This document shows, piece by piece, positions 1 through 16,806 of a DNA stretch of 64,000 nt. The DNA is taken from assembly GCF_016132545.1 (NCBI RefSeq), contig NZ_CP066167.1:496001-560000 (forward strand), written 5' to 3'. The notes beneath the pieces are model-generated. The model was not told the origin of the DNA. It was given only the letters and a program-made list of their open reading frames with translations, and did no database searches. Position numbers and translations under genes: made by a program. Within the stretch, counting starts at the first letter, position 1, and every line of letters begins with the position of its first letter. The stretch comes from Spongiibacter nanhainus (GTDB taxonomy: Bacteria > Pseudomonadota > Gammaproteobacteria > Pseudomonadales > Spongiibacteraceae).

Positions 1-1
1 G

Positions 2-157
2 ATTAAGTTCAGCAGCCAAATTGATCGCAGCCTGCAGCAAATGATTCGCCTCCTACAGCTCAATTTATTTGAGCGCAGAGAGTTGCTGCCTTTGCTGAGA
101 GGTGATCCTCCAGAGCAACTTAACAACACCATTCATCCGCAGCTCTGCTTGCTATGA
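2..157 (+). mobile_element. 3' end of an IS4-type transposase gene (insertion sequence cut by the window edge)
   Basis: An open frame enters from the left edge and ends at TGA 155-157. Its last residues include LLQLNLFERRELLPLLRGDPP, then end in PQLCLL. The QLNLFERR...L...P...LL pattern resembles the C-terminus of many IS4-family transposases (from memory of the family). The element stops shortly after the transposase stop, somewhere around 158-177, where the reading frame of the minus-strand neighbour loses its natural sequence. The other IS end, the rest of the transposase and any target-site duplication are outside the window, so the exact element cannot be named. Confidence 0.62.
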
Positions 158-476
158 ATATTTGTGGGACAGCAATGAGAATAAATAATGATTTTTCCCA
201 GTAATCTACATCTATAGGACGTAAACCATCCTCCGGCGGGGAGAAGTGTTGTCGAACAATGCGTTTTCCAATTGCACCGTACAGAAAATCTCCTTCTCGC
301 CCGTAGCATAGATAGCTGAATTGTACCCGTCTATGTTGAAATTGCCACACCTTACCAAAAAGCTTAGTTAAAAACTCTGCTCGGCTTGATCGAGTGAATC
401 CTTCTTGTTCGTCACCCTCGAAAAGTGGAGCTTCATGCCTTTCCGTAAGTGAGATACGAAGTAAGTTCCCTTTCAT
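120..476 (-). pseudogene. Small R-M-associated protein, C-terminus lost to an IS insertion
   Basis: This frame starts at ATG 476, 27 bp downstream of the res gene and on the same strand, so it is probably the third gene of the mod-res operon. About 100 N-terminal residues look natural (MKGNLLRISLTER..., with a WQFQHRRVQF stretch). From roughly position 177 down, the translation is only the antisense of the IS end (IAVPQIFIASRAADEWCC). The real protein was therefore longer and is interrupted. Similar small proteins of unknown function are found beside Type III-like restriction genes, from memory; no function is claimed. Whether the shortened product is made or works cannot be seen. Confidence 0.6.
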
Positions 477-503
477 AAAGTTCCTTGAATTTGACTCTTT
501 AAA

Positions 504-3080
504 CTATTGGTAGTTTTCCGCCTCGACGCTGCGGTATAGCACTTCTACATCATCCGCTGCTCGAACAGCGTCCCGTACCTTTTGGTTCTTCATGTCTAGT
601 ACGCGTAGCTTGCCGTCTACTTCCCCAATGGATTCAATCCTGTGGAAGGTGTCACCATAGGCTTCTACGAAATCAGCGAGACCCTTCAGTTTTGGTATGG
701 CGTCGCTGAGATGGATGCCGTGAGGGTCAACGATGGAAGCTTTTACATTGTTTTCGTCACCGTGGAAAAAGATAAAGTCAGGACACATACGCCGCCAGTT
801 CCCGTCACTTCCAGTCCAAGCGACTGCGAGAGCGTCCGCCGATGCTCGTGATGGGTTGCGATACCATGCAAGGAAATCACTTCGTCCCATCTCCTTGTCA
901 ACGACTTTGATTTCCCAGTTGTTTAGGTTTGCAACGGGGAACATGCCGGTAGTATCAGCCATCAGGTGATTACTCCGAGTCTCAAGAAGGTTGCCTTCGC
1001 TATCCTTGGTTTCCTCTGTGCGAATGTGCGGACGCTTAATGTCGATACGCTGGGGCTGCGAGGACATGCCTTTTATGTTGTCGTAGTCAGCCTGCCGTTC
1101 CTCACTAAGGCCCTTTATTGAGACTCTGTACTCATCGAACCAGGCTTTCGCCATCTCATCAGCTTCGGCATCCAGTGCTTCAGTGACTCCGTCAATTTTT
1201 CCAAGTGCGCCTACAGTGATGTGTGCATCTAAAAGGCTATCGTCATCATCTGGATCGGCTAGGTAGTCGGCGTAGCGTTTTGCTAGTTCTGGGGTGAGGA
1301 GCCTACCTGCGGCTTTGTAGTCTGCTTGAATCGCTCTATCGTCTGCGAGTTCGTGAAACACTCCCGCGTCTTCAACATCTCCGCTATGTACACCTACCAC
1401 GATAGTTGCGCCATCGACCTGTAATACGTCCTCCTTGGCCGCTTCGAGTTTGTCAGAGTGTCGGGCTGAGAACCCATCTAAAACCTTGCAGAGCTCGTTA
1501 TAGGCTTCTTTGACGGCGTCGACGCGTAGGCCGTCACGAGACAGGGATTGAGCAAGAGCGGTATAGCGGAAGATTGGCCTTGCTACTTTTCTGGGCAGTG
1601 TTTGTGAGGGGAGAGAGTCAAATAACTCCCAGACACTATCTGGGATATTGGGGTTAGTTCCCATGTCAACCGGTGCAATGAGTACACGTCGGCCCTCACC
1701 GCCTCCTGTACCGTCGCCATCTTCTTTGCGCTGACCGATCATGGCTTTTGCGACTTCGGTAGCTGTGTTGCTATCAAATTCGGGGAGTACGCATTCTACG
1801 GAATTAAGTAGATCGTCTCCGGGTATGCGGCGAGCGAGAGGTGTCCGAACCATGCGGCCAAGCAACTGAGTGATGTATGTGGTGTCTGAGGCGGGTCTGA
1901 ATGAAACAAAGACTTCGGCGCGTGGACAGTCCCAGCCAGTCGAAATTGCATCTTTAGCAAGTAGGACACGGACGTGGGTCTGGTCTTGGATCATCTGCGG
2001 GTGCACATAACGCACGGTGAAATCACCTAACTCAAGGTCGCTATGTTCGCCGAAGACGTTAGCTATGGCATCAGAGGGAATTTCAGGCCACTCATCTCGA
2101 ATAGTCTCAACGGCAGAAAGTAATAATTGGTCAGAGGGAGAGTTGGGGACTTGTACAACTAATAAAGGGACAACTACATCGTCAGTGCTCCCTTCCCGAT
2201 TACAATACGTCTGCCACCTTTCGGTTATGGTCTTTAATTTTCGTGTGGCTCTAGCTAGTAGGCTGGTATTGAAAGTGCCTTTTTCTGTTGGGAAGTCTAA
2301 GCGAATGTCATCCTTCAAAAGTCCCGAATCTTGTACTCTGGCAGGGTCAACAACAACGGGTGGGCGAATGTTTCTTCCTTGCTGCTTTTTCATTGCCTCA
2401 TTAAAGCGTTCTACAGTTGCTGAAATACCCCAAACGACCGGGGTGGGAGGCGCTCCGCTTGTGCCATTAATAAGCTTTTGTACAATGGTCGCCCGTTCTC
2501 TTTCACTATTCATCCCTCTATGAGCTTCATCAAGAACAAGATAGAGAGTTAAATTTTTGTCCTCGATGGTGTTCCTTAGAATGTCCCACATCGTATTGGC
2601 TCGATCGTCCGGTGGGGGGACATTGTCGAGTTGAATTTGTGGATTTCCTGTGTCGTGCTGAGTGACACCTCTAACTAATTTTGCATTTCTGGAGAGCTTC
2701 TGAGCATTCAGGAAGTAAACCTTTCCTGCGTCAAGTTGCTCTTGACTGAAGGAGTTTTCGATAACCACAAGACGAGAGCTGTTTATTTTGTCAGCTGCTG
2801 CCATTAATCGGAAGCGGGTTTGTTCATTTAGGGACGGGTCGTCAGTAAACCAGAGAACCACCGCGCCGGGGTCTGCCTCAAAATTGTTTTCAGCATCACC
2901 GTTAAAAAGTGCCTCAATGACTGCGGCAGCCATCACGGTCTTCCCTGCGCCGGTTGTTGCTGTCAATGAAAAAGCGGAAGTGTCACCATCCTGTTTCCAA
3001 TCTCTAGTAGACTTTTTTAAGTTGGCGAGAACGTCAACTACGGCGTCCTTTTGGTATCCTTTTAACGTGTAACGCATCAA
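504..3080 (-). CDS. res: Type III-like restriction endonuclease subunit Res (SF2 helicase/nuclease)
   Basis: This 858-residue protein is the DNA-translocating and cutting subunit of a Type III-like restriction-modification system. Walker A is TATTGAGKT at 40-48, the DEAH box (VLDEAH) at 182-187, motif III SAT at 220-222, and motifs V/VI are STGWDCPRAE at 380-389 and QLLGRMVR at 405-412. These mark a superfamily 2 ATPase. The C-terminal nuclease candidate is CPDFIFF at 766-772 followed by SIVDPHG near 782-788. The second half therefore reads D-x-H rather than the usual (D/E)-x-K of PD-(D/E)XK nucleases. The start overlaps the mod stop by four bases (ATGA), so translation is coupled. The length is normal to slightly short for Res. 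No frameshift is seen. Confidence 0.9.
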   Translation of the reverse strand: MMRYTLKGYQKDAVVDVLANLKKSTRDWKQDGDTSAFSLTATTGAGKTVMAAAVIEALFNGDAENNFEADPGAVVLWFTDDPSLNEQTRFRLMAAADKINSSRLVVIENSFSQEQLDAGKVYFLNAQKLSRNAKLVRGVTQHDTGNPQIQLDNVPPPDDRANTMWDILRNTIEDKNLTLYLVLDEAHRGMNSERERATIVQKLINGTSGAPPTPVVWGISATVERFNEAMKKQQGRNIRPPVVVDPARVQDSGLLKDDIRLDFPTEKGTFNTSLLARATRKLKTITERWQTYCNREGSTDDVVVPLLVVQVPNSPSDQLLLSAVETIRDEWPEIPSDAIANVFGEHSDLELGDFTVRYVHPQMIQDQTHVRVLLAKDAISTGWDCPRAEVFVSFRPASDTTYITQLLGRMVRTPLARRIPGDDLLNSVECVLPEFDSNTATEVAKAMIGQRKEDGDGTGGGEGRRVLIAPVDMGTNPNIPDSVWELFDSLPSQTLPRKVARPIFRYTALAQSLSRDGLRVDAVKEAYNELCKVLDGFSARHSDKLEAAKEDVLQVDGATIVVGVHSGDVEDAGVFHELADDRAIQADYKAAGRLLTPELAKRYADYLADPDDDDSLLDAHITVGALGKIDGVTEALDAEADEMAKAWFDEYRVSIKGLSEERQADYDNIKGMSSQPQRIDIKRPHIRTEETKDSEGNLLETRSNHLMADTTGMFPVANLNNWEIKVVDKEMGRSDFLAWYRNPSRASADALAVAWTGSDGNWRRMCPDFIFFHGDENNVKASIVDPHGIHLSDAIPKLKGLADFVEAYGDTFHRIESIGEVDGKLRVLDMKNQKVRDAVRAADDVEVLYRSVEAENYQ

Positions 3081-5245
3081 TCTCTTCCCGTGTTGATGGT
3101 GAAATTATTTAGGTATGATTCATACAAGCGTACAGACTCAACATGCGATGGAAGTTCTTCGCAAACAGACTGAAACCCTAAGTCATCGTCGGTGACGATA
3201 AAAGCCATTGTAAGAAGTTGGTTGCCTTGGATTTCTGATAGAAAGTTTTTTGATGCGTCTAAGTCGAATAAAATCGCGTAGTTGTCGGCGATGCCGAAAG
3301 AATTTTCTTTTCGATCGATCCTTCTACCCTTAGCTCCGGCTTTAAGCCATAGAAGAGGTGCGATAGCTTCGAAGGATCGGTTGTGCGCCACGGGAGCTGG
3401 GGCTTCATAAGACAGTGTGAAGAACTCGGCGTTTTCATCGAAGCCATCTGCCATGCTGTATTGTTTATTAAATCGGTATTCTATGCCAATGTCCTCTCCT
3501 TGAGGTGTTCTTCCCGTTATGGCAGATTGAATTCTAGGTTTTGTCACATGGTCGCAGATTCCTAGTGATTCCCATTCGGCGTCTCCGGGTCTAAGCCCTT
3601 TTGTGCTCAGTTCTTTCTGCTCATCGGCAGATACCTCATTGTTAGTTATACTGATGCATTGCCTCTGTCCACTATCCTCTTTGTTAAGGCGCATTACTGC
3701 GTGGGCTGTAGTGCCTGATCCAGAAAAGAAGTCTAAAATAATGGCGTTTGGTTTGTTAGAAACGAAAAAGCGCAAACAATCCTCAACAGCATAAAGTGAT
3801 TTTGGGAATGGGAAATCTCTTCCTGGAATTATGGATCGCACCAGAGATGAGCCGTGTTCACTTGCGCTATGAGATGTTTTGTTCCACATTGTCTTTGGGT
3901 TTTCCAGATGTACGTAGTTATTTGCGTACTCAAGTGAGACGGCTTCAGTTTTATTTTTTCTTGTAACTCTTATGCTGCCATTTTTGATCTGATTAAGGAG
4001 ATTGTCTGTTACATACTTAATCGATGCTCGTCCCGATGGGCTTAGCTTTCCAATCGATGCATACCCCATGTTAAAAAGTTCAGAAAGTCTTTGGTTTCCT
4101 ACTTGCCATCGGCCTTCTGAGCCATCTTTGCGTATTGGCCAAATGGCGACAGTCCCTGTTGGCGGTATCACTTCGTCTCGATTGGCTGAAAGAGGTAATA
4201 ATGCCTCGCCTATGCTATGTAGCTCCCCGGAGTTTTTATTGACAAAGATTGGGTAAAATTGATGCTTCCTGTCTGATCGTTTGGCATCGGTGCCACTCCT
4301 TAGTAAGCTTCCCCACCTGACTTTGGGCGGGTTGGTTTCGGCTTCATTCTCTTTATTGTCTACCCGCTCTTTTGTACTGATCATTGCATGGGTTGATTTC
4401 TGGACGGCTGCCTCGCCTACATAGACGAAAAACAAATACTCCTCAACTCTATAAAATTCTTGGCCTCTGGCTACTCCTTTGGGATTGATAAGGCTCGTAA
4501 CCATTTGAATTTTTGAGTCGTTGAATACTTGGGAAAGTAGTAGCCCTAATCTGTGTACTTCTTTTTCGTCAATGGTTGCTATCAAAACTGAGTTAATGGG
4601 GCATAATAATTTTTTGGCTAGCTTAAGTCGTCTCTCCATCATGGCTAGCCATTTGCTGTGCTTGTACTGGTCGTCTGAGTCAACGTAATCGTTGTTGTAC
4701 TTCCAGTCCTTGTCGCGGGTGTTGTAAGGCGGGTCAATGTAAATTGCGTCTACCTTGCCTTCATGGGTGTATTGAAGGGCTTGTAGGGCGTGGTAATTTT
4801 CTGCATTGATAACGGTGTGGAAGGGCTTGTTGCCCCCGCGTTCAATTTTGCCGGTGGATTTGAGGCCCGGATAAATGGGGTCACGAAACTCTGCAACCAC
4901 TACTAGGTCATCACAGGCTCTGGTGGCTGTTTCTATCTCTCCCAACTCGACTGCTTTTCTAACCAGCTCGGCGGTTCGTATCCCGCCTTCTACTTTGATC
5001 TTGGTTACTCGCCATAGACCCCGATCAACATTCTTTGTCGGCTCCCCTCGTTCGGGTAAGAAGCGGACTTTGTCCCCTCGACGAATGGGGCGGCCCGGGA
5101 GCTCGACGGTTTCCGGGGTGTGCCGCTCAAAATTAAGGCCGAATGCTCGGCGGGATTCGAGGGCCTTGACTTCTCGGGCGAGGTCGGCGGCAAGTTGTGG
5201 GTCTTTTGATTCTACTTGGCGTAGAAGGTTCTTGAGGGTCGACAA
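3077..5245 (-). CDS. mod: Type III-like DNA adenine methyltransferase Mod
   Basis: The 722-residue protein is the modification and specificity subunit partnered with the Res subunit just downstream. The catalytic motif DPPYNT (171-176) comes before the AdoMet-binding motif DFFSGSGTT (505-513), which is the beta-class order typical of Type III Mod N6-adenine methyltransferases. The roughly 230-480 stretch between them should hold the target-recognition domain, so the recognised sequence cannot be predicted from the conserved parts. The N-terminal 150 residues include a beta-rich segment found in many site-specific methyltransferases of this kind. The stop overlaps the res start (ATGA). The gene is A/T-rich compared with the core chromosome, which fits transfer with the island. 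Confidence 0.92.
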   Translation of the reverse strand: MSTLKNLLRQVESKDPQLAADLAREVKALESRRAFGLNFERHTPETVELPGRPIRRGDKVRFLPERGEPTKNVDRGLWRVTKIKVEGGIRTAELVRKAVELGEIETATRACDDLVVVAEFRDPIYPGLKSTGKIERGGNKPFHTVINAENYHALQALQYTHEGKVDAIYIDPPYNTRDKDWKYNNDYVDSDDQYKHSKWLAMMERRLKLAKKLLCPINSVLIATIDEKEVHRLGLLLSQVFNDSKIQMVTSLINPKGVARGQEFYRVEEYLFFVYVGEAAVQKSTHAMISTKERVDNKENEAETNPPKVRWGSLLRSGTDAKRSDRKHQFYPIFVNKNSGELHSIGEALLPLSANRDEVIPPTGTVAIWPIRKDGSEGRWQVGNQRLSELFNMGYASIGKLSPSGRASIKYVTDNLLNQIKNGSIRVTRKNKTEAVSLEYANNYVHLENPKTMWNKTSHSASEHGSSLVRSIIPGRDFPFPKSLYAVEDCLRFFVSNKPNAIILDFFSGSGTTAHAVMRLNKEDSGQRQCISITNNEVSADEQKELSTKGLRPGDAEWESLGICDHVTKPRIQSAITGRTPQGEDIGIEYRFNKQYSMADGFDENAEFFTLSYEAPAPVAHNRSFEAIAPLLWLKAGAKGRRIDRKENSFGIADNYAILFDLDASKNFLSEIQGNQLLTMAFIVTDDDLGFQSVCEELPSHVESVRLYESYLNNFTINTGRD

Positions 5246-5561
5246 TGTGTGATCCTTATCTCAGAGTTCCATTCTGGCGCTGTTTAGGTAGCTATCGCAC
5301 TAATTATCGTTGGTCAGTACTACCCAGCAGTTGGGGATTTTACGTCGCCATCGGGAAAATGATCAACATGGACAGCGATGCGATGCCTTAGGCTGTCCAA
5401 TACTCTTGAGTAAGTAAGGCTCGGCCCAATTTGCACGGGCACTGCCGGGTGGGTCTTAGAGGGGCTCATACTGCGCCCTGTGGCGTTTTGCTGTCCTTCG
5501 TATGCTAGGGCAGGGGCTTTGTTAAATCCATTGAGAGTGACTTGTAGGAGGGAGAGGGCGG
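5246..5561. other. Intergenic stretch between mod and the polymerase-like gene
   Basis: These 316 bp separate two genes on the same strand. The promoter of the mod-res operon is expected here, but I cannot point to a convincing -35/-10 pair. I see no credible reading frame, RNA gene, repeat or clear rho-independent terminator. The stretch is long for an operon junction, so mod-res is probably its own transcription unit, separate from the integrase/polymerase-like group. Confidence 0.5.
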
Positions 5562-7115
5562 CTAGCAGTCAAAGTCATCCTCGCCTGAATATGTGAAAAT
5601 GCCTTCTTTCGTACCTGTTGATCCGTCTGAGCGTTTTACCTTATACAGCGTCATCTCAGGTTTGAAGTTGGGATAGAGCGTCCATAGGGCTTGATCCATC
5701 TCCATTGTCAGCATGGATTCTAAGCAGTCCCAAGTGATAAATGAATCATGAATAGTCAGGCAGGGAAATCCTTTCCGGCCAAAGTTGAGCAAGACTTGTT
5801 CGGCGATGTTGGAGTCTATAAGCTGAAGTTCCTTTCCTGTTTGTCCATCCTGAAAGAACCTGTCTTTAATTGGTGCATGGAAATCTATTAATGGCTCGAT
5901 GAGGTACGCATACTTCTGGCCTAATTTTTTGTTCCTTCGAGCGGCCTTCTTCGCAGAATTTAGGCTTTTACAGTTAATCAGGAGTTGAAAGACTAGCTTC
6001 AGCGCATTTCGTTCATGTGGGGTCTCATAGCCGGGTATTGTGTAAGGGTCGGTGGCAATGTTTATCCCAGCTTGGGCATAGAGCAGGACGGGATGAAGAG
6101 AGGAGAAGTCGATCTCTGAAGTTCCCCAATTCTCGTAATCAATGCCGTGTCCGGCTGTCTTGATGGTAGTGGGTTTGTGCTCAAGCTTCAGGTATGGACG
6201 AGCTTCCGCAGGAATGTTTTGGAACCAGGGGCCATAGAAGCGACCACAGGTAGTAAAACTATCCTGAAAGATACGGGCGTAGTGCATTCTAGTCCCAGGA
6301 GGAATGTTGAAGTCACAAGGCCGCTTTCCTTTCCTTAGGCGCTCCTCGTTTATTTCTGCCTGCAGATCCAAGGTCAAAGGCAAGGAGATACTTAGATCGG
6401 AAAGGAGGCTATTAATCTCCGCAAGGTTCTCTCGAATTGAGGGAATCTCGGGGTGAAGGTTATCGTCATACTCCAGGAGCTTCCGTTTCTTATTGATCTT
6501 CTCAACAAGAACAACAAGTTCCTCGTCGGGGTCGTGCTCGATCATGCAGGGTGTAACGCTGTAAAGCATGTCCCATAACAAATTAGTCCCGAGAATGCGT
6601 GTGCTAAAGGACATGCCATCCTCAAATCCTCCCTCACGAACATACTTGTAGGGGCTCTTATGAATGAGACCAAGGAGGTGGAGGACATCAGTAACGGCTC
6701 GTAACTGGGATGGCTTCCAATGGCACTTGTTGTATCTACTATCATTCCGCAATGAGGCTTCATCAGAGAGCTGTATGGCAATCCAGGGGATACAGTTGCG
6801 GGGTAGAAGGTTGCCTTCAGAATCAAACTGACTAATAGCCAAATCCCAGAGAACCCTCAGAAGGTGGTTGTCAAACTTCTTCCTTCCACCTCCTCTAGAG
6901 CTTGGTAAGCGGACAATAGGGGACTCACGTCCAGAACGTTCAGATTGCTGCTCTTCCTTGGGGGCGGCCCGCTTTCCATTACTAGAAGTACTTTCCAGCT
7001 GCTCTTGAATGAATCTCGCTACTTTCTTCGCTGCGGCAAGGGCCTTTGGGTGATCACTCCGTTGCCATACATCAAGAGGGCGAGAATTATCGAGGTAGTC
7101 GTTTCTATCGTCCAT
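5562..7115 (-). CDS. Family-A polymerase-like protein of a mobile element
   Basis: I know no name for this 517-residue protein, but its C-terminal half carries a recognisable series of family-A polymerase motifs. GRFYGPWFQNIP at 291-302 matches the GR...QNIP segment before the palm of DNA polymerase I. EIDFSSLHP (334-342, D336) fits motif A. R369-x3-K373 in RNALKLVFQLLINCKS fits motif B, although the Tyr-Gly end is missing. LTIHDSFI (453-460, H456-D457) fits motif C and resembles the HDSF of T7-type RNA polymerase. Both metal-binding aspartates are present. There is no 3'-5' exonuclease or 5'-nuclease domain. Residues about 80-190 may be a winged-helix DNA-binding region. The gene follows the integrase and an 82-aa gene on the same strand, with phased repeats just upstream. 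Activity (DNA, RNA or primer synthesis) is unknown. Confidence 0.68.
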   Translation of the reverse strand: MDDRNDYLDNSRPLDVWQRSDHPKALAAAKKVARFIQEQLESTSSNGKRAAPKEEQQSERSGRESPIVRLPSSRGGGRKKFDNHLLRVLWDLAISQFDSEGNLLPRNCIPWIAIQLSDEASLRNDSRYNKCHWKPSQLRAVTDVLHLLGLIHKSPYKYVREGGFEDGMSFSTRILGTNLLWDMLYSVTPCMIEHDPDEELVVLVEKINKKRKLLEYDDNLHPEIPSIRENLAEINSLLSDLSISLPLTLDLQAEINEERLRKGKRPCDFNIPPGTRMHYARIFQDSFTTCGRFYGPWFQNIPAEARPYLKLEHKPTTIKTAGHGIDYENWGTSEIDFSSLHPVLLYAQAGINIATDPYTIPGYETPHERNALKLVFQLLINCKSLNSAKKAARRNKKLGQKYAYLIEPLIDFHAPIKDRFFQDGQTGKELQLIDSNIAEQVLLNFGRKGFPCLTIHDSFITWDCLESMLTMEMDQALWTLYPNFKPEMTLYKVKRSDGSTGTKEGIFTYSGEDDFDC

Positions 7116-7142
7116 CGCTGAATACCTTGTCTCCTTTCACAA

Positions 7143-7200
7143 AGCGGGTAATAACCGGGTAGAAAAGCACCTACAAACCGGGTGGAAACGGGGCGGCAAA
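7143..7200. repeat. Four phased 12-bp repeats (iteron- or operator-like) before the polymerase-like gene
   Basis: The copies are AGCGGGTAATAA (7143-7154), ACCGGGTAGAAA (7154-7165), ACCGGGTGGAAA (7177-7188) and the weaker ACGGGGCGGCAA (7188-7199). Their starts are 11, 23 and 11 bp apart, close to one, two and one helical turns, so all copies face the same side of the DNA. They lie 28 bp upstream of the polymerase-like start codon. Such arrays are bound by replication initiators (iterons) or repressors; which applies here is inference. Confidence 0.55.
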
Positions 7201-7245
7201 TCCGCTACAAGTGGCGCAAGGGGTCGTTGGTTAATTTCAATTAAT

Positions 7246-7494
7246 TCAATGAGATACGATTTTTTTGCTGGCCGGAAGTTGTAGCCGTTGTTTGGCTATC
7301 TTCAGGGCCCACAGATTACGGAAAAAACTCCCTACCAACCCATTGCTTCGTCCTCTACCCGCTGTAAAGTTTTTCAGCAATGCAGGATCTTCAGTGGTAC
7401 AGCCGAACCGAATACGCCTCGAATTGGTAGCTGTTCCTGCCTCCTGGTGCCATTCCTCGGGTATGAGGTCAATGTCCAATCCCTGTCCTTCCAT
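7246..7494 (-). CDS. Small protein of unknown function coupled to the integrase
   Basis: This 82-residue frame begins with ATG sharing one base with the integrase stop (TAATG at 7496-7492), a common sign of translational coupling. I do not recognise the protein. It is acidic at the N-terminus and basic toward the end (RGRSNGLVGSFFRNLWALKI), with no membrane segment and no cysteine pairs. Its position between integrase and polymerase-like gene suggests a small DNA-binding helper such as an excisionase, but no clear helix-turn-helix can be read. It could also be a chance frame, although the exact junction argues for a real gene. Confidence 0.5.
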   Translation of the reverse strand: MEGQGLDIDLIPEEWHQEAGTATNSRRIRFGCTTEDPALLKNFTAGRGRSNGLVGSFFRNLWALKIAKQRLQLPASKKIVSH

Positions 7495-9161
7495 TAATGG
7501 CTGCTAAGAAAAGTTCGCCGCTCCTGTAATAGTTCGAGCTCGGATTTGACCTGAGCCCCTTTCATGGCCTCATCCTTCCTCCTTTGGTAGAACAAATCCT
7601 CTGTCAGGGCTATAAATTCTCTATCTGATAGCCGCATAAGGTCTTGGAATGATCGGGGTGGTTTGGAGCAGATTGTTAGGTTTGCTATGGTTTGACCGTC
7701 GGCATAGAAGCCCACTAGGTCGCGAAACCTGTGCTCGAATGGCTCCCTGTATGGGTCGATAGGGTTGCCGCCGATCCGAATAACTCGCCTGCCCGTTTGG
7801 TGCCGGCTTTGAGTGGTGTTCGCCTTCTGCTCTGTTTCGTTGTTCTCTGAGAGTATCTCGCTCTGTGGGTTGGCGCCTAACGCTCGCAATAGCTCTTCGT
7901 GTTCGGGAGTGAGCTTCTGTCTGCGTGTGCGTCTCCCGTCGGCCTCTTCTTTGCTTCGTTCAAGAAGCCAGAGTTGGTAGGTTTCTAGAGCCTGCATCAA
8001 AGTATCGTAACTATTCTGAATGTAGCGTTCGGTGATGTTGCTGCGCGAGTGGTTCAGTATGAGGCTGATCGTTTCTTGTGGGATGCCAGCAGAGACCATG
8101 TGGGTGGCTGCTGTTCTCCTGAGGTCATGCACCTGTAAACACCTACCTCGCTCCCTTTGAGGTGTCCAAAGCACTTCCGGGCTGATGCTGTTAAGTATGG
8201 TTTTTCGGACGTCAGTCAATCTGGTGCCATTGACTCTCCCCGGAAACACCCACGGGTTGCTCCCACGGCGAATCTCGTCTTGCCTTCTGAGAATGAGGTA
8301 CATCAGGCAAGTCATGGGGAGTTCGTGATCACGTTTGTTCTTTGTATTCCTGAAGGTCACGGTTTCCATGCCCCAGTTGACGTCGTCCCAGCAGAGCTGC
8401 ATTGCCTCTGATTTACGGCAACCTGTCAGGAGGACGAAAAGGAGGAAGTTCCCGTGGGTACGGTGCTTTGATCGAAGGGCGAATAGCTCCCGAACCAGCT
8501 GTCCCACGTGGGTATCAGGAACGAAGCCTTCCTTCCCTTTTACGGTCTGTGCAACCCCCTTCAAGCTTGCAACGGGATTGGCCATTTCCAGACCGTACTC
8601 GGATACCGCGAAGCCAATGACAGCTGATAGCGCCCGTCGGAGTTTGGCTGAAGTCGCTTGGCTTTTCTCCCGCTCTACTCGACGGAGCTGACGGCGAACA
8701 TTGTCAATGTTGAGGTCAGTGATCCGGGACCTCAGCAAGGGGCCGGCATGATTCGTGATAGAGGAGCGGTAGTCTCTCTGGGTGGATGGTTTGAGCTCTG
8801 TGCGGGTCTCTAGGAGCTGTTGTAGTGCATTTAGTACCGTGACCCGGCTCTGTACTTCTTTGCTCTGTGCGGCCTTCTGCGTCGCTGTGACGTCTTCACC
8901 ACTGCGTAGCCTGGCAACAATAACCCTCGCTTTTTCCTTGGCTTCATTTAAAAGTTCCGGCTCGGCTGGGCCTATCGTTATTCTGCGTGCCCTACCTTGG
9001 CCCCGTACCTTGGCTTCGACTATGAAGGAGGCCTTGTCGCTGCCCTTGAAACGCCTGACTCCCAGCCCGTCAGGAGCCCGGAGGTACTGGTCTTTTGCAG
9101 GCGTTGGGCCTGATAGAAACTTCTTGAGTGTCGTGGTGGTAATTGCTTCCCGCGCTGCCAT
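7494..9161 (-). CDS. Tyrosine recombinase/integrase of the tRNA-Phe genomic island
   Basis: This 555-residue protein should integrate and excise the island at the neighbouring tRNA-Phe gene. Catalytic residues of the family can be placed: R249 in TGCRKSE, H345 and R348 in VHDLRRT, H371 in LNHS, and the nucleophile Y380 in TERYIQ. The N-terminal 100 residues resemble the arm-binding region of prophage/island integrases (LRAPDGLGVRR, then a basic segment). About 150 residues follow the catalytic tyrosine, an unusually long C-terminal tail. The start lies 119 bp from the tRNA 3' end and the gene points away from it, the usual layout for tRNA-integrated islands. All catalytic residues are intact, so the enzyme may still work. 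Confidence 0.92.
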   Translation of the reverse strand: MAAREAITTTTLKKFLSGPTPAKDQYLRAPDGLGVRRFKGSDKASFIVEAKVRGQGRARRITIGPAEPELLNEAKEKARVIVARLRSGEDVTATQKAAQSKEVQSRVTVLNALQQLLETRTELKPSTQRDYRSSITNHAGPLLRSRITDLNIDNVRRQLRRVEREKSQATSAKLRRALSAVIGFAVSEYGLEMANPVASLKGVAQTVKGKEGFVPDTHVGQLVRELFALRSKHRTHGNFLLFVLLTGCRKSEAMQLCWDDVNWGMETVTFRNTKNKRDHELPMTCLMYLILRRQDEIRRGSNPWVFPGRVNGTRLTDVRKTILNSISPEVLWTPQRERGRCLQVHDLRRTAATHMVSAGIPQETISLILNHSRSNITERYIQNSYDTLMQALETYQLWLLERSKEEADGRRTRRQKLTPEHEELLRALGANPQSEILSENNETEQKANTTQSRHQTGRRVIRIGGNPIDPYREPFEHRFRDLVGFYADGQTIANLTICSKPPRSFQDLMRLSDREFIALTEDLFYQRRKDEAMKGAQVKSELELLQERRTFLSSH

Positions 9162-9190
9162 AGGTCAACCTCGCTACGGTTAATTGAACA

Positions 9191-9210
9191 CGTAGACTCT
9201 GGCGTAGACT
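9191..9210. repeat. CGTAGACT direct repeats between integrase and tRNA
   Basis: CGTAGACT occurs at 9191-9198 and again at 9203-9210, 12 bp apart, in the 119-bp stretch between the integrase start and the tRNA-Phe 3' end. Short direct repeats in this place are often arm-type sites for the integrase or its excisionase. That role is inferred from position only. Confidence 0.35.
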
Positions 9211-9280
9211 TTGAAACTCGATTTCTGGCAATTCTGGCGGTTTAGGAAACCCTGTGAATATAGGGGAAAGCCGCAAGGAG

Positions 9281-9356
9281 TGGTGCCCAGAGGCGGAATC
9301 GAACCACCGACACGAGGATTTTCAATCCACTGCTCTACCGACTGAGCTATCTGGGC
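9281..9356 (-). tRNA. tRNA-Phe (anticodon GAA)
   Basis: On the minus strand the sequence folds as a full 76-nt tRNA. The acceptor stem is GCCCAGA with TCTGGGC, followed by discriminator A and an encoded CCA (9281-9283). The D arm is AGCTCAGTCGGTAGAGC, the anticodon arm contains GGATTGAAAATCC with GAA, and the T arm has GTTCGATTC. The gene is intact. Its 3' end faces the integrase, so this end is the probable attachment site of the island, and the copy restored on integration is complete. Confidence 0.96.
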
Positions 9357-9441
9357 ATATTGGAAATGTCTGGGCCTCTGGCCGCAGAAGGCGCGTATTA
9401 AACCTGACCCGTTTCGGGGAGTCAAGTCGATCGCGACAGCT

Positions 9442-9714
9442 TTATTCGCTGGGGGGAACGTAACCCTCGGCTTGGTCGTAGTCGCTACCGGCAAAGAACT
9501 TTTCCATCTCCTGTTGCAGGTACTTGCGTGCGCTGGGGTCCACCATGCTGAGGTGTTTTTCATTGATTAGCATGGTTTGGTGGGCCTGCCACTCTTCCCA
9601 GGCCCGCTTGGAGATGTTGTCGAAGATGTCCTGGCCTTTGCTGCCGGGGTAGGGGGGCTTGTCCAGACCGGGTAGGTCTTGTTGGTACTTTCGACAGAAT
9701 ACCGTTCGGGTCAT
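9442..9714 (-). CDS. yggX: Probable Fe(2+)-trafficking protein YggX
   Basis: The 90-residue protein is a full-length Ygg[19 protein letters not shown] at the start with the conserved Cys7, then GQ(D/R)I...[10 protein letters not shown] and the ...LINE..L....[12 protein letters not shown] core. YggX is a cytoplasmic protein linked to protection of Fe-S clusters and iron handling under oxidative stress. It lies 17 bp downstream of mutY, an arrangement common in gammaproteobacteria. MutY itself is a 4Fe-4S enzyme, so joint expression makes sense. Confidence 0.95.
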
Positions 9715-9731
9715 GGTGTTGATTCCCTTTT

Positions 9732-10814
9732 TTAATCGGCCATTGGGTTGGTGAGCAGATCGCGCTGTATCCAGCTGTCCAGCAATTTTTTGACGGGGGC
9801 CGCCAGGCCCAACTGCTGGGGCCCACCGTTATACCAGAGGGCTTGCTGGTCTTCCATGATAAGGGTGGGGGCGCGGTGTAACTGGATGTGAATTGGCTGG
9901 ATGTCCAGGTGGTAGTGGCTGAAGGTGTGACGCAGTGGCGTCAGGGCTGTCGAGTCGCCGCTCTCGTTCAAGCGTTGTTGCAGAAAATCGCCTGGGTCGG
10001 TGTCGGTGGCCAGCTCCGGTAGGCTCCACAGTCCGCCCCAGATGCCGCTGGGCGGGCGCTTTTCCAACAGGATGCCACCGTCGGGGTGCTCGATCAGCAG
10101 CATTTGGCACTGTTTAACGGGGATTGTCTTCTTTGGCTTTTTGCCCGGGTAGCGGGTCTGCTCGCCAGTGGCGTAGGCCTGGCAATCTTCGCTGACAGGG
10201 CATTCGCTGCACTGGGGGCGGCTGCGGCTGCAAAGGCTGGCGCCGAGGTCCATGATGGCCTGGGTGTAGTCGGCCACCCGCTGCTCGGGGGTATGTTGTT
10301 CAGATAGCGCCCAGAGCTGGTTTTCCACTGCTTTTTGTCCCGGCCAGCCGTCGATGGCGGCGTGTCGCGCCAGCACCCTTTTGACGTTGCCGTCGAGGAT
10401 CGGCGCCCGCCCGCCGCAGGCGATGCTAAAGATGGCGCCGGCGGTTGAGCGACCGATGCCGGGCAGTTGTTGCAGGGCTTCCAGGTCGCAGGGGAAGTCG
10501 CCGTTGTGCTCGTCCCTCACTTGCTGTGCGGCGCGGTGGAGGTTGCGGGCCCGGGCGTAGTAGCCGAGGCCAGTCCACAGCGCCAGAACCTCGTCCTGAG
10601 GGGCGTCGGCAAGGCTGAGCACATCCGGGAAGCGCGCCATAAAGCGCTCAAAATAGGGTATTACTGTGCTCACCTGGGTCTGCTGGAGCATGATCTCCGA
10701 CACCCACACTCGGTAGGGGCTGATGTCCTTTTGCCAGGGCAGGTTCTTGCGGCCGTGGCGATCGAACCAGTCCAGCAATCGGGTGCTGAAGTGTTGTGGC
10801 GCGGTTCTAGTCAC
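9732..10814 (-). CDS. mutY: Adenine DNA glycosylase MutY
   Basis: This 360-residue enzyme removes adenine mispaired with 8-oxoguanine. The helix-hairpin-helix GPD fold is clear: E40 in [23 protein letters not shown] around 117-128, and D141 in [12 protein letters not shown], matching the catalytic Glu and Asp of E. coli MutY. The 4Fe-4S ligands are C195, C202, C205 and C211 (C-x6-C-x2-C-x5-C). The C-terminal third is the MutT-like domain that reads 8-oxoG ([19 protein letters not shown]). The length is normal. It precedes yggX on the same strand. Confidence 0.96.
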
Positions 10815-10826
10815 AGTGACGGGGGC

Positions 10827-11225
10827 TTAGTGTTGCGGGCGCTGCCAGCGCCAGTAGGTACTCACTTGAGTAAAGCCGAGATCGCTGAACAGGTTGACCA
10901 GGCCGGGTGCGCTGCGCAGATCGGCGGAGATGCTTTTCAGGTCATCGGGGAGCTGTTTGAAGGTTTGGATCAGCAGTTGGCGGGCCACGCCCCGGCCGCG
11001 GGTGATTTCCCTGACGGTAAGGCGGGCCATCTGGTAGTCGCCATCGTGGATGGGAGTCAGGGTCAGGGCGGCGATCAGGCGTCCGTTAAAACGCCCTCCC
11101 ACCAAAATAAGTTTGCCTTTATCGGCGGCGGCAAGCAGCTTATCGCTGTCTTTGGGGTAAAGCAGAGCGATGTCGTCAGCGTCCGCGGGTTCGGGCTGGC
11201 TAATGATCTCGGCGTAGACCGGCAT
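10827..11225 (-). CDS. panZ: PanZ/PanM-like GNAT protein, aspartate decarboxylase maturation factor
   Basis: This is a 132-residue GNAT-fold protein. The acetyl-CoA-binding segment reads VREITRGRGVARQLL (71-85), very close to the VREVTRRRGVG segment of E. coli PanZ (PanM) as I remember it. The short length and the ...FSDLGFTQ...WRW end also fit. PanZ binds PanD, promotes its self-cleavage into the active pyruvoyl enzyme, and in the acetyl-CoA-bound form restrains it. The PanD substrate is in this window (60067-60447). An ordinary GNAT acetyltransferase is the alternative. The gene is divergent from hisB and just downstream of nothing obvious on its own strand. Confidence 0.72.
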   Translation of the reverse strand: MPVYAEIISQPEPADADDIALLYPKDSDKLLAAADKGKLILVGGRFNGRLIAALTLTPIHDGDYQMARLTVREITRGRGVARQLLIQTFKQLPDDLKSISADLRSAPGLVNLFSDLGFTQVSTYWRWQRPQH

Positions 11226-11240
11226 AGGGCTTCAGGTTAT

Positions 11241-11273
11241 TTGCTGTTATACGGAACGGGAATTTTTTATAAT
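11241..11273 (+). promoter_or_regulatory. Likely sigma-70 promoter of hisBHAF
   Basis: A perfect -10 box TATAAT lies at 11268-11273, about 52 bp before the hisB ATG. The -35 is poor: TTGCTG at 11241-11246 would need a long spacer (21 bp). The divergent panZ-like gene starts at 11225. Confidence 0.45.
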
Positions 11274-11324
11274 ACACGATTCTGCCACTTTTAAGTGCTT
11301 CCGCTGGATACTGTTGAGACGTCG

Positions 11325-11918
11325 ATGAGCGAACGCAAGGCCACCATTAGCCGCAATACGCTGGAAACCCAAATCACCGTGACGGTGAATCTGGATGGCA
11401 GCGGCCAATCCCAATTTGAGACCGGGGTTCCCTTCCTCGACCACATGATGGACCAGATAGCCCGTCACGGCATGATCGACCTGGTGGTGCAGGCCAAGGG
11501 CGATCTGCATATCGATGACCACCACACGGTGGAGGATATCGGCATCACCCTGGGCCAGGCTTTTGCCGAGGCGGTGGGGGATAAAAAAGGCATTTTCCGC
11601 TACGGCCACGCCTATGTGCCACTGGATGAGGCACTGTCCCGGGTGGTAATCGACTTTTCCGGTCGGCCCGGGCTGGAATACCACGTGCCTTACACCCGGG
11701 CCAGCGTCGGCGGCTTTGATGTCGACCTGTTCTCGGAGTTCTTCCACGGCTTTGTCAATCACGCCCGAGTGACCCTGCATATCGATAATCTGCGGGGCAC
11801 CAACACTCACCACCAGGCCGAAACCGTATTTAAAGCCTTCGGTCGGGCGCTGCGCATGGCGCTGTCAGTAGACGAGCGCATGGCCGGTATCACGCCCTCT
11901 ACCAAGGGCTGTCTGTAG
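11325..11918 (+). CDS. hisB: Imidazoleglycerol-phosphate dehydratase HisB
   Basis: This 197-residue single-domain HisB dehydrates imidazoleglycerol phosphate in histidine synthesis. The paired metal-binding repeats are plain: [13 protein letters not shown] and [11 protein letters not shown] near the start, then [14 protein letters not shown] and [19 protein letters not shown] near the end. I prefer ATG 11325 ([12 protein letters not shown]) to the GTG at 11295, because the protein then has the usual N-terminus. It lacks the phosphatase half seen in the E. coli bifunctional enzyme, as is usual outside the enterobacteria. It is the first gene of hisBHAF. Confidence 0.96.
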
Positions 11919-11937
11919 TTTTACTCGCGAGTTTTAC

Positions 11938-12609
11938 ATGAGCACAACAAGCGTTGCCGTTATCGACTACGGCATGGGCAATCTGCACTCCGTGGCCAGT
12001 GCCCTGGAAAAAGTCGGCGACGGTGTGACCGTCCACGTCACCGACTCCCCTGAGCTTATTTTTGCCGCCGACAAGGTGATTTTTCCCGGTGTGGGGGCGA
12101 TCCGTGACTGCATGGCCGAATTGAAGGCCCGAGAGCTGGACGAAGTGGTCCAGGAGGTGGCTGCCAGCAAACCGATGCTGGGTATCTGCGTCGGCATGCA
12201 GGCGCTGATGGAACACAGCGAGGAGAATGGCGGTGTTGACTGCCTGGATGTGCTGCCCGGTGAAGTGAAGTTCTTCGGTCGCGACCTGCGCGATGCCAAT
12301 GGTCAGCGCTTGAAAGTCCCCCATATGGGCTGGAACACGGTGAGTCAGCGCATCGACCACCCGCTGTGGGAAGGCATTGCCGACAACACCCGCTTCTATT
12401 TTGTACACAGCTACTACATCCACGCGCCGGAGTTTGTCGCCGCCACCGCCGATTACGGGGTGGAGATCCACGCCGCCATGGCTTGTGAAAACGTGTTTGC
12501 GGTGCAATTCCACCCGGAGAAAAGCGGTGACGCCGGGCTGCAGTTATTGCGAAATTTTTTGCGCTGGGATGGTGGTTTGCCTGCCTTCCGGCCAGTGAGT
12601 GAGTTTTAA
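11938..12609 (+). CDS. hisH: Imidazole glycerol phosphate synthase glutaminase subunit HisH
   Basis: The 223-residue protein is the class I glutamine amidotransferase that feeds ammonia to HisF. The nucleophile C84 sits in [10 protein letters not shown], and the other triad members are H192 and E194 in FHPEKSG. The N-terminal [11 protein letters not shown] and FPGVGA segments are typical. It follows hisB by 19 bp and comes just before hisA. The product pairs with HisF encoded two genes later. Confidence 0.96.
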
Positions 12610-14199: not shown

Positions 14200-15543
14200 C
14201 TACTGGGCCGCTTCCTCTTTCGCTTTCTGTATCGCCTGCTTGGCTGAAGACATGATGTTTAGTCCTTTCAGCAAGTTGAGGGCTTCATACAGCTGGTTGT
14301 CATTGGCGGCCAGTTCGGCGTTATCGCTGTCGCCATTGCGGCTAGCGCCGTTGCTCTCTCTGCCATCGTCCCGGCCCAGATGGCCGGCCAGATCCGCTTC
14401 GGTGACCTGATTGCCGGGTTTCAGTGCTTCGATTTTTGCCCGTTCAACCACGATGTCGGGGATGATGCCCTGAGCCTGGATGGATTTGCCACTTGGTGTG
14501 TAGTAACGGGCGGTGGTGAGCTTGATGGCACTTTCTTCCGACAGCGGCAGCACGGTTTGCACCGAGCCCTTGCCGAAGCTCTGGGTGCCCAAAATGATGG
14601 CCCGGCGGTGATCCTGCAGCGCGCCGGCCACGATTTCAGACGCCGAAGCCGAGCCGCCGTTGATCAGTACCACCAATGGTGTGTCTCCAGCTTGAGTCTG
14701 CGCCGAGGCATTGTAGCGGCTGTAGGCGTCGGGCAGGCGGCCTTGGGTGTAAACGATCAGGCCGTCATCCAGGAAGGTATCGGTGACTTGAACAGAGGCC
14801 TGCAACAGGCCGCCGGGGTTGTTGCGCAGGTCTAATACCAAGCCTTTGAGCTCGCCATCCATTGCCTGGAGTTTGGCCAGTTCATTGCGCAGGTCTCGAG
14901 CGGTGCGGCTCTGGAACTGGGAGATGCGCAGGTAGCCGTAGCCGGGCTGCAGCATTTTGCTGCGCACGCTGGCGACGGTGATGGTGTCCCGCCGCAGCTC
15001 CACGTCAAAGGGGGCATTAACGCCATCTCGGAGGATAGTCAGCACCACTTTGCTGCCTTTGGGGCCGCGCATCATGGTGACGGCTTCCTGCAGGCTGAGG
15101 CCTTTCACCGGTTTGTTGTCGATCTGAATGATCAGGTCACCGCTCTGCAAGCCGGCCCGCTGCGCGGGGGTGTCGTCGATAGGTGCGACCACTTTCACAA
15201 AGCCATTTTCCATGCCGACTTCAATGCCCAGGCCGCCAAATTCGCCGGTGGTGTGGCTTTGCAGGTTGTCGAAGGAGTCGGAATCCAGGTAATCCGAGTG
15301 GGGGTCCAGGCCACTGAGCATGCCGCGGATGGCGTTTTCAAGCAGTGTCTCATCGGCCACTTCCTCCACGTAGCTGTGGCGGATTTGGTTGAACACGTCG
15401 GCAAAGTTGCGCAGTGCATCCAGTGGCAGTTGTCCCTGTGGCTCGCTGCTCTGGGCGGTGTTATCCCCGGTGCTTTGTGCCTGGGCGCCCAGGCAGATCA
15501 ATGCCACTAGCAGCGCGGCGGAGAAACGGTACAGCTTCGACAT
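14200..15543 (-). CDS. ctpA: Carboxy-terminal processing protease (S41, CtpA-like)
   Basis: This 447-residue periplasmic protease has a signal peptide (about 1-22, LLVALICLGAQAQ), a PDZ domain (about 104-170) and the S41 catalytic core. The serine lies in GGSASASE (296-303) and the lysine is K325 in SFGKGSVQT. Such enzymes trim exported or misfolded proteins and regulate peptidoglycan enzymes. I start at ATG 15543, since AGGAT sits eight bases upstream and the signal peptide then begins correctly; an in-frame start nine codons earlier exists. It follows the envC-like and gpmI genes on the same strand, an order seen in other gammaproteobacteria. Confidence 0.92.
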   Translation of the reverse strand: MSKLYRFSAALLVALICLGAQAQSTGDNTAQSSEPQGQLPLDALRNFADVFNQIRHSYVEEVADETLLENAIRGMLSGLDPHSDYLDSDSFDNLQSHTTGEFGGLGIEVGMENGFVKVVAPIDDTPAQRAGLQSGDLIIQIDNKPVKGLSLQEAVTMMRGPKGSKVVLTILRDGVNAPFDVELRRDTITVASVRSKMLQPGYGYLRISQFQSRTARDLRNELAKLQAMDGELKGLVLDLRNNPGGLLQASVQVTDTFLDDGLIVYTQGRLPDAYSRYNASAQTQAGDTPLVVLINGGSASASEIVAGALQDHRRAIILGTQSFGKGSVQTVLPLSEESAIKLTTARYYTPSGKSIQAQGIIPDIVVERAKIEALKPGNQVTEADLAGHLGRDDGRESNGASRNGDSDNAELAANDNQLYEALNLLKGLNIMSSAKQAIQKAKEEAAQ

Positions 15544-15646
15544 TGGCGTTATCCTGAAAAAAGACTTCAAACCGGTTTATTGTATAGCTTCTGCTCAGAT
15601 CGTGCTTGGATCGTGCAACACTGCGTCAGTTCAGTGGGGCGCAGGA

Positions 15647-15685
15647 TCAGTTGCACCGTTCAGTTGCGCAATTCAGTTGCACCAT
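15647..15685. repeat. Three 13-bp tandem repeats at the end of the envC-like gene
   Basis: The copies on the plus strand are TCAGTTGCACCGT (15647-15659), TCAGTTGCGCAAT (15660-15672) and TCAGTTGCACCAT (15673-15685). The last one encodes the end of the envC-like gene (Cys-Asn-stop on the minus strand), so the repeat starts inside the coding region and runs into the gap. Each copy carries the same in-frame-looking TGA on the minus strand. Confidence 0.6.
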
Positions 15686-16806
15686 GCAGCGGGGTCCCGG
15701 GGCCGGCCCTTGTGGCGAATTTCAAAGTACACCCCGGCCTGGCGGCGTCCGCCGCTATTGCCGACGGTGGCGATGGCTTCTCCCCCTCGCACCCAGTCTC
15801 CCTCTTGCCGCAACAAGCTTTCGTTGTGGGCGTAAAGGCTGAGGTAGTCGTCACCGTGATCGACGATTATGAGTAGCCCGGCACCCCGCAGCCAATCCGC
15901 AAAAACCACCCGGCCATTGTGGATACTGTGGATGCTGTCGCCCTCGTTGCCGGCGATTTGAATGCCCTGCCAGCGAATGGCACTGCCCTGACGGGAGGAG
16001 CCGTAGCTATTGAGGCGTCGCCCGGCCACCGGCCAGGGCAGTTTGCCGCGCATCTCTTTAAAGGGTTTGTAGCTGGCGGGAATAGCGATGTTGGTAATGT
16101 CTTGCTCAATGGCCTTGAGCACGCTTTCCAGGCCTTTGCGCTCGCTGTCCAGATTGCTGAGCTGTGAGCTTTGGCTGCTGAGTTCCCGGTCAATGCCGGC
16201 GAGGATGTCGGCGCGTTTTTGTTTTTGCTCTTGGAGTTCCGCCTGCTGTTCCTGCAGTTCCTCTTCAGCGTCGGCGAGTTTTTCAGTCTCGCTGGCGATC
16301 TCCGGGATCAGCGCTTGCAGTGAGCTAAGGGTCTGGCGATAGCGCTCCAGTTGCTCGCTGCGGGCTTCGTTGAAGTAGTCGTAGTAGGTCAGCATGCGGC
16401 TGAGCTTTTCCGGGTCTTCCTGGTTGAGCAGCATTTTGATACGCCGTTCCTGACCCAGGGTATAGGCGTCGCGGATTTGCTCGGCGATGATGGCTTTTTG
16501 CTTGCTCTGTTGCTGACGCAGCAGGCCCTGGCGGCGCTGCAGGTCATCGAGCTTGTTCTGGTGGGCATCGCGCTGGGTTTTAACGCGGTGCAGTTCGGCG
16601 GCGACTCGGCCGACGTCCTTTTCTATCGCGCGGAGTTTGCGGGCCTCGCGGGTACGCTCAGCCTGATTGTCGCCGATGGTGTCTTTGAGCTGGCGGATTT
16701 CCCGGTCCAGCTGCTTGAGCTGGGCGCGGGTGGCCTCGGCGTCCTCAGCCCGGGCGCCGGGCAATACTAGCCAGGCACAAAGCAGTAGCAGGCCAGCCCG
16801 CCGCAC
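15673..16806 (-). CDS. envC: EnvC-like murein hydrolase activator
   Basis: This 377-residue exported protein has an N-terminal signal peptide (LLLLCAWLVLPGARA), a long coiled coil (about 25-250, rich in Glu, Gln, Leu and Lys) and a C-terminal LytM/M23 domain (about 259-377). The first metal-binding His-x3-Asp of active M23 peptidases is missing (RWQGIQIAG in its place), as in E. coli EnvC. It is therefore probably an activator of amidases at the division septum, not a peptidase. It lies 12 bp downstream of gpmI and upstream of ctpA, a common neighbourhood. Confidence 0.88.
   Translation of the reverse strand: MRRAGLLLLCAWLVLPGARAEDAEATRAQLKQLDREIRQLKDTIGDNQAERTREARKLRAIEKDVGRVAAELHRVKTQRDAHQNKLDDLQRRQGLLRQQQSKQKAIIAEQIRDAYTLGQERRIKMLLNQEDPEKLSRMLTYYDYFNEARSEQLERYRQTLSSLQALIPEIASETEKLADAEEELQEQQAELQEQKQKRADILAGIDRELSSQSSQLSNLDSERKGLESVLKAIEQDITNIAIPASYKPFKEMRGKLPWPVAGRRLNSYGSSRQGSAIRWQGIQIAGNEGDSIHSIHNGRVVFADWLRGAGLLIIVDHGDDYLSLYAHNESLLRQEGDWVRGGEAIATVGNSGGRRQAGVYFEIRHKGRPRDPAAWCN

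Follow-up and report, generated by a model that had tools for sequence, protein, structure and literature searches.

The window analyzed here, a stretch of 64,000 nucleotides from Spongiibacter nanhainus, holds a conserved family-A polymerase gene within a bounded mobile element. The product of this gene, a pared-down enzyme resembling DNA polymerase I, fits the TV-Pols, a known but little-studied family, and what we describe is a known kind of system rather than an undescribed one. On balance, we favor the view that this minimal polymerase of family A, a TV-Pol, serves a small site-specific integrative element as its dedicated replication protein. A preliminary description of the same DNA had recognized polymerase motifs in a stand-alone protein on a tRNA island, and its interpretation as a whole is partly supported; its statement that no described system has this make-up does not hold, since TV-Pols were described in 2008 (PMC2579912) and the phage group divPolA2 in 2024 (PMC11348598).

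A polymerase gene in a bounded element at tRNA-Phe

The open reading frame (ORF) is real (517 amino acids, ATG start) and lies on the minus strand, which the preliminary description had not given. Its placement beside an integrase on a tRNA island is borne out by the tRNA-Phe (9281-9356) and the tyrosine integrase (7494-9161) that adjoin the gene. The features of the element are as follows.

1..157, plus strand: 3' end of a DDE transposase gene (PF01609), which begins outside the window at C1:495006
504..3080, minus strand: type III restriction enzyme, cargo (PF04851, E 4.4e-13; PADLOC REase_III, E 7.1e-09)
3077..5245, minus strand: type III restriction methyltransferase, cargo (PADLOC PDLC03645, E 2.6e-260)
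5562..7115, minus strand: polymerase gene, TV-Pol-like family A, 517 aa, ATG start (motifs, AlphaFold model, PHROG 4756)
5676..6278, minus strand: polymerase core (template hairpin, palm, fingers), residues 280-480 (alignment, AF2, Foldseek)
6585..6887, minus strand: predicted winged-helix domain, about residues 77-177 (AF2 model of the N terminus; no significant match)
7246..7494, minus strand: 82-aa ORF without a family, between integrase and polymerase (ORF list)
7494..9161, minus strand: tyrosine integrase, 555 aa (PF00589, E 6.5e-21)
9279..9326, no strand: attachment repeat on the tRNA side, 48 bp, perfect direct repeat of C1:493301-493348, outside the window
9281..9356, minus strand: tRNA-Phe(GAA), integration target (Rfam)
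C1:493918-494804 (L307 15918-16367 and 16364-16804), minus strand: two adjacent unannotated element ORFs of 149 aa and 146 aa (no Pfam match)

A 48-bp perfect repeat of the 3' half of tRNA-Phe bounds an element of 12.0 kb (window 9279-9326 to C1:493301-493348), which contains the integrase, the 82-aa ORF, the polymerase, the type III methyltransferase and restriction enzyme, the DDE transposase (presumably of the IS4 type), and the two small ORFs. GC content is 0.491 in window positions 1-9278 versus 0.580 in the window to the right of the repeat. When the insertion site around tRNA-Phe was compared in 4 of the 17 congeners, the DNA to the right of the tRNA was conserved in all four (69-74%). 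On the other side, three of them (G382, G384, and G385; 5-6 kb compared) had no blastn match to window positions 1-9278, while in the fourth (G381) the start of a related integrase matched over 409 bp at 77.5%, with another copy of the 48-bp repeat about 2.3 kb away. An Rfam search of window positions 1-12000 found the tRNA alone. The 82-aa ORF had no match in Pfam, PHROGs, PADLOC, or NCBIfam, and an iterated search of the fetched loci returned only its own genomic copies. The 149-aa ORF appears, judged by eye, to be membrane spanning, and together with its 146-aa neighbor it possibly forms a further cargo module.

A third copy of the repeat (76 bp, 99%) lies at C1:424874 and suggests that a second, larger island with its own integrase sits in tandem at the same tRNA-Phe. 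This apparent island spans about 68 kb (C1:424874-493348; L307 and L353) and has an integrase at L307 14066-15136 (PF00589); in its examined part, translations judged by eye point to two P450-like ORFs as well as aldehyde dehydrogenase-like, alcohol dehydrogenase-like, and acyl-CoA ligase-like ORFs.

Conserved residues and the predicted fold

The 517-aa protein matches PHROG 4756, a family of unknown function, at an E value of 5.7e-33, and it matches no family in Pfam, NCBIfam, or PADLOC at E values up to 1. No exonuclease domain was found in it, in agreement with the preliminary description, nor any other nuclease domain (Pfam at E up to 1; PDB profile search), and its aligned relatives likewise showed none (Pfam). 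Membership in Pol I proper (PolA1) was rejected given the absence of a PF00476 match and of exonuclease domains; the host genome has one PF00476 gene, its own Pol I, located elsewhere.

To the window protein we aligned 101 relatives, each 18-31% identical to it. The resulting alignment has 102 rows; L135, L142, and L018 were left out of a possible 105, made up of the window and 104 non-redundant rows from the loci. Residues G291, R292, R306, D336, Y358, K373, H456, and D457 are invariant in 102/102 sequences, R369 is an arginine in 101, and D356 is conserved in 99. The series noted in the preliminary description, namely GR (291-292) followed by QNIP, D336 in EIDFSSLHP, R369-xxx-K373, and H456-D457 in HDSF, is present at exactly these residues and, with its key residues invariant across the alignment or, for R369, nearly so, is not a chance occurrence. 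In motif C the residue after HD is a serine in 100/102 sequences, and this HDS is shared with T7 RNA polymerase (RNAP), while T7 DNA polymerase (DNAP) and the host Pol I have HDE; the earlier reading of motif C as RNA-polymerase-like is thereby upheld.

The positions that gate nucleotide choice were located from their distance to conserved motifs (five residues after the catalytic D; four and eight after the K of RxxxK), an assignment verified against the host Pol I, T7 DNAP, and T7 RNAP. The position of Pol I E710 is occupied by histidine in 92 of the 102 sequences and never by glutamate, and that of F762 by asparagine in 60, leucine in 30, and phenylalanine in one. A third position, taken as that of Pol I Y766 and T7 RNAP Y639, is an asparagine in 95/102. 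E710 and F762 discriminate against ribonucleotides, and both are reported as conserved in CCPol (PMC7581432), from which the family of the window protein differs at both. Since both ribonucleotide-rejecting positions are changed, RNA priming by the window protein is plausible from its sequence.

An AlphaFold2 (AF2) model built with the 102 sequences as input reached a pLDDT of 84.9 and a pTM of 0.86. Its top Foldseek match in the PDB was human mitochondrial RNA polymerase (E 1.3e-4), followed by Bacillus Pol I, the apicoplast polymerase, and yeast mitochondrial RNAP. There were 25 matches at E values of at most 0.001, and the structural match is partial, as query-length TM-scores were only 0.25-0.39 among the 50 matches listed. 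In the model, D336 lies on a predicted strand (332-336) and D457 between two others (452-455 and 458-462), a placement expected of a polymerase palm. The template hairpin is formed by predicted strands 280-284 and 290-294, with R292 present in 102/102 sequences, and is preceded by predicted helices 224-239 and 249-261, candidates for the two-helix coiled-coil thumb that TV-Pols have at this place. The conserved motifs and the best PDB matches of the model agree with the family-A palm and fingers proposed in the preliminary description; no unrelated well-known family was matched, and the predicted structure resembles family-A polymerases. Against predicted viral proteins, Foldseek returned uncharacterized Aeromonas and other phage proteins with E values down to 8e-20, including one annotated as the DNA polymerase of Rheinheimera phage Barba31A (E 2.0e-16). 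Profile searches gave no significant link of the family to T7 RNAP, T7 DNAP, or the host Pol I, and the kinship proposed with them is drawn from motifs and predicted fold. For T7 RNAP in particular, motif C alone aligns, and PF00940 (RNA_pol) is matched weakly by 5/102 members, with a best, nonsignificant E value of 0.0061.

Modeled alone, residues 1-196 gave a pLDDT of 83.5 and a pTM of 0.80, with elements in the order helix-strand-helix-helix-strand-strand, which is that of a winged helix. Foldseek found nothing significant for this region (best E 0.065, to a mitochondrial RNAP). Many of the 50 matches listed are PadR-, GntR-, or MarR-type winged helices, and ORC proteins appear too, alongside methyltransferases and plant EDS1 complexes, which have unrelated folds; by profile, PadR 1xma matched at an E value of 0.062. 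The model thus suggests that the N-terminal third contains a winged helix.

Relatives in small integrative elements and in phages

With the window protein as query, tblastn matched 20 phage records and 2 plasmid records, and a single-protein viral scan found nothing. A profile-guided scan of bacterial genomes yielded 324 relatives, and a viral scan yielded 50 loci with relatives. The best 80 of the 324, ranked by their match to one sequence (L068), come, judging by record titles, mostly from Alphaproteobacteria (Rhodobacterales and SAR116); smaller numbers are from Gamma-, Beta-, and Deltaproteobacteria, and a few from elsewhere. The gene is rare within the taxonomic class of the window: of 369 genomes, a protein search detected it in 3 and a profile search in 4, the window genome being counted each time. 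A plasmid Rep function is unlikely, as only 2 of 72,556 plasmid records, 128 kb and 2.2 Mb in length, match the window protein, and the L098 polymerase has 3 matches, all on replicons of 128 kb to 2.2 Mb.

Neighborhoods were counted over 83 loci (the window, 80 genome loci, L006, and L007). All of them were fetched through the polymerase, so its constancy is given by construction, and the result lies in the integrase pairing and the variable cargo. A tyrosine integrase is present in 66/83 loci (a count that includes the window); among the 49 loci in which both flanks extend for 7 kb or more, 45 have one. The 17 loci without an integrase include 4 with flanks of this length. The baseline in the host genome is 13 PF00589 places in 4.08 Mb, or about 6% per 19-kb stretch. 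A tRNA or tmRNA gene lies within 500 bp of the integrase in 34 of the 66 loci. In 34 loci, polymerase and integrase are enclosed by tRNA-anchored direct repeats 4.9-15.0 kb apart (median 8.8 kb); 35 loci had the polymerase inside a repeat pair, of which L128 (2.4 kb, no integrase) was excluded, and the repeat of L086 measures only 15 bp. Across the 80 loci, 33 of 51 tRNA or tmRNA genes are repeated over 17 bp or more at a second place in the same locus, compared with 3 of 153 cross-locus control pairings (longest 60 bp). L086 itself has two polymerases of the family, at 8785-10464 (plus strand) and 14578-16326 (minus strand), about 4 kb apart with an integrase and a tRNA-Leu between them; perhaps these are two elements side by side.

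No conserved partner emerged: the biggest cluster of non-integrase neighbors (about 204 aa) occurs in 17/83 loci and every other cluster in at most 7, at the level of BLAST clustering, which would miss divergent proteins. Neither a CCPol-like partner nor a small SSB-like neighbor recurs by the same clustering, divergent OB folds being beyond its reach. A type III-like methylase is found in 6/83 loci. Among 105 of the 132 listed cargo proteins of at least 130 aa, scanned singly, 10 match the PF00239 resolvase family and 6 N6_Mtase; helicase-type families (ResIII, 5; DEAD, 3; Helicase_C, 2), read at the family level, are of kinds common in restriction enzymes, and single proteins match nSTAND3, Cas1, and (in L138) a caspase domain. 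Of the 62 Pfam families in these proteins, the 25 commonest include no recognizable replicative helicase or primase; of the 93 PHROG families, the 25 commonest include none of a structural kind, which speaks against prophages. The smallest elements (L138, 4.9 kb; L098, 5.9 kb; L120, 6.3 kb) consist of integrase, polymerase, and one further gene of more than 100 aa, which encodes a caspase-domain protein in L138, an Mrr-nSTAND3 protein in L098, and a weakly AAA/NACHT-like protein in L120. Six Rhodobacterales loci (L075, L080, L083, L104, L107, and L115) share a tRNA-Cys target and an opposite-strand integrase downstream of the polymerase and differ in cargo.

Measured by motifs, architecture, and neighborhood against the published description, the window protein fits the TV-Pols of Iyer, Abhiman, and Aravind (2008), which are exonuclease-less family-A polymerases of integrase- or resolvase-bearing mobile elements beside restriction-modification genes and are proposed to prime and polymerize (PMC2579912). 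The shared traits are a nuclease-free family-A core of 400-600 aa; a template-binding arginine hairpin, two palm aspartates (102/102 here), and a fingers aspartate with RxxxK; an N-terminal globular domain, present in a subset of TV-Pols; neighbors such as lambda-type integrases, gamma-delta resolvases, transposases, and restriction-modification operons; and many alphaproteobacterial hosts. The RRM-like fold is read here from AF2 and Foldseek only. Two differences stand out: the N-terminal domain is predicted to be all-helical in PMC2579912, whereas here a winged helix with strands is predicted, and the 105 cargo proteins show no D5-like helicase within the 25 commonest of their 62 Pfam families. 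Microcystis phage Ma-LMM01, the source of a TV-Pol named in the 2008 work, was searched piecewise; its TV-Pol gene was not pinpointed, and no significant match was found.

On the phage side, the divPolA2 representative AUR84708 matched our profile of cellular relatives at an E value of 2.3e-29, with an hhalign probability of 99.3% over 247 columns. As that profile (A6; 72 rows, window plus cellular loci) has no phage rows, the match places divPolA2 and the relatives of the window protein in one family. The divPolA2 proteins were described by Yutin et al. (2024). They have no exonuclease, like ours, and no usual thumb; they differ in being carried by phages that have a regular DNA polymerase as well, and they were suggested as possible repair DNAPs or RNAPs (PMC11348598; PMC11188092 is an apparent preprint). 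Integrases have no mention in the main text of that study; TV-Pol is named once, for small viruses, and the consulted part draws no link to divPolA2. A separate canonical PolA was found in 19 of 30 phage records with a relative (28 of the 50 viral contigs plus 2 phage records), 18 of them over the cutoff, so the relative is probably not the main replicase of those phages. The Vibrio phage homologue P0003 is matched by 278 phage records; a relative annotated as hypothetical is also carried by Vibrio cholerae phage ICP1 (HQ641354.1, 59648-60772; E 1e-7 to P0003). In a quick tree of 103 rows, from which one of the two L086 rows is missing, phage and cellular labels change 3 times, versus about 27 when shuffled; support is weak at many of the deep forks, and the window protein sits on a long branch of unsure placement.

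Two further systems invite comparison. CCPol of SCCmec, which according to Bebel et al. (2020, PMC7581432) was placed among the TV-Pols by Iyer et al., works as a DNA polymerase and turns into a primase once its partner protein MP is present. Like the window protein, the CCPol-MP and PolA-SSB primases involve a family-A polymerase in a site-specific mobile element (SCC) (PMC7581432, PMC10061031); CCPol too is without exonucleases, and de novo priming was shown for CCPol-MP. Pipolins resemble the present elements as integrative elements with their own polymerase, but their piPolB belongs to family B. A search confined to the open-access literature for a family-A polymerase combined with integration returned no paper.

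A proposed role in replication and its alternatives

With its catalytic residues, predicted family-A fold, bounded element, frequent integrase pairing, and no other widely shared neighbor at the BLAST level, the protein is most likely the element's initiator or primase-polymerase, and it probably starts or copies the DNA of the 12-kb element. Primer maker and replicase of the element, two roles raised in the preliminary description, are sound candidates as judged from the sequence. Recombination between the two 48-bp tRNA-Phe repeats, carried out by the integrase, would excise the element, and the winged-helix N terminus may bring the polymerase to a site on the circle, a putative origin. The core would make a primer de novo, possibly of RNA or mixed composition, since it has neither of the residues with which Pol I rejects ribonucleotides; host enzymes or the polymerase itself would extend it, and the integrase would reinsert the copy. 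It is tempting to speculate, as a doubtful proposal rather than an expected outcome, that winged helix and family-A core form a one-protein initiator-primase-polymerase that, having lost both ribonucleotide-rejecting residues, starts replication from self-made RNA primers, provides the only replication function of tiny integrating elements (some with no more than an integrase, the polymerase, and one defense-type gene), and is shared with large phages as divPolA2.

An unlikely but specific alternative is a single-subunit RNA polymerase that transcribes genes of the element or phage, the winged helix being its promoter-binding part. The HDS of motif C, the near absence of Pol I residues at the gate (E never at the E710 position, where 92/102 have H; F in 1/102 at that of F762), the mitochondrial RNAP as first Foldseek match, the weak PF00940 matches, and the RNAP role raised for divPolA2 (PMC11348598) would all suit it. 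However, the protein has 517 aa compared with the 883 aa of T7 RNAP and aligns with it in motif C alone, the tyrosine of T7 RNAP Y639 is replaced by asparagine in 95/102, and elements of 5-12 kb with few cargo genes would hardly need their own transcriptase.

Carriage as cargo, with the polymerase acting as a defense effector or regulator like other polymerase-based defense proteins, appears quite improbable. The surroundings do abound in defense-type genes (restriction systems, a caspase-domain protein, STAND- and NACHT-type NTPases), yet these vary between elements while the integrase is found in 66/83 loci, phages carry relatives too (the 278 records of P0003), and no PADLOC model matches the polymerase, so that a known defense protein was rejected. 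Least probable, in our judgment, is a repair or gap-filling DNA polymerase that helps the integrase finish integration: the integrase pairing and the lack of a recognized replicative-type helicase (25 commonest of 62 Pfam families) would be in its favor, but tyrosine recombinases recombine without leaving gaps, 17/83 loci are without an integrase (including 4 whose flanks both extend for 7 kb or more), and in two phages none is annotated in the 12.6 kb around the gene.

For the preferred reading, a replication protein of the element, the interest lies in how a fused branch with changed gate positions and no replicative helicase recognized nearby starts DNA synthesis. What this analysis contributes is the delimitation of small tRNA-anchored elements around the branch with a fused N-terminal domain and the joining of this branch to phage divPolA2. 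The changed ribonucleotide-gate positions are a specific, testable difference, and minimal elements such as L098 would make directly testable what a family-A polymerase needs for DNA priming.

Directly upstream of the polymerase gene, at 7141-7197, lie imperfect CCCGGTT-like repeats with an 11-bp period. Such repeats average 1.93 copies before 76 polymerase genes versus 1.93 before 793 other genes; as they are not enriched, an iteron origin was rejected and no origin was identified. In the window itself, the repeats could be a local binding site.
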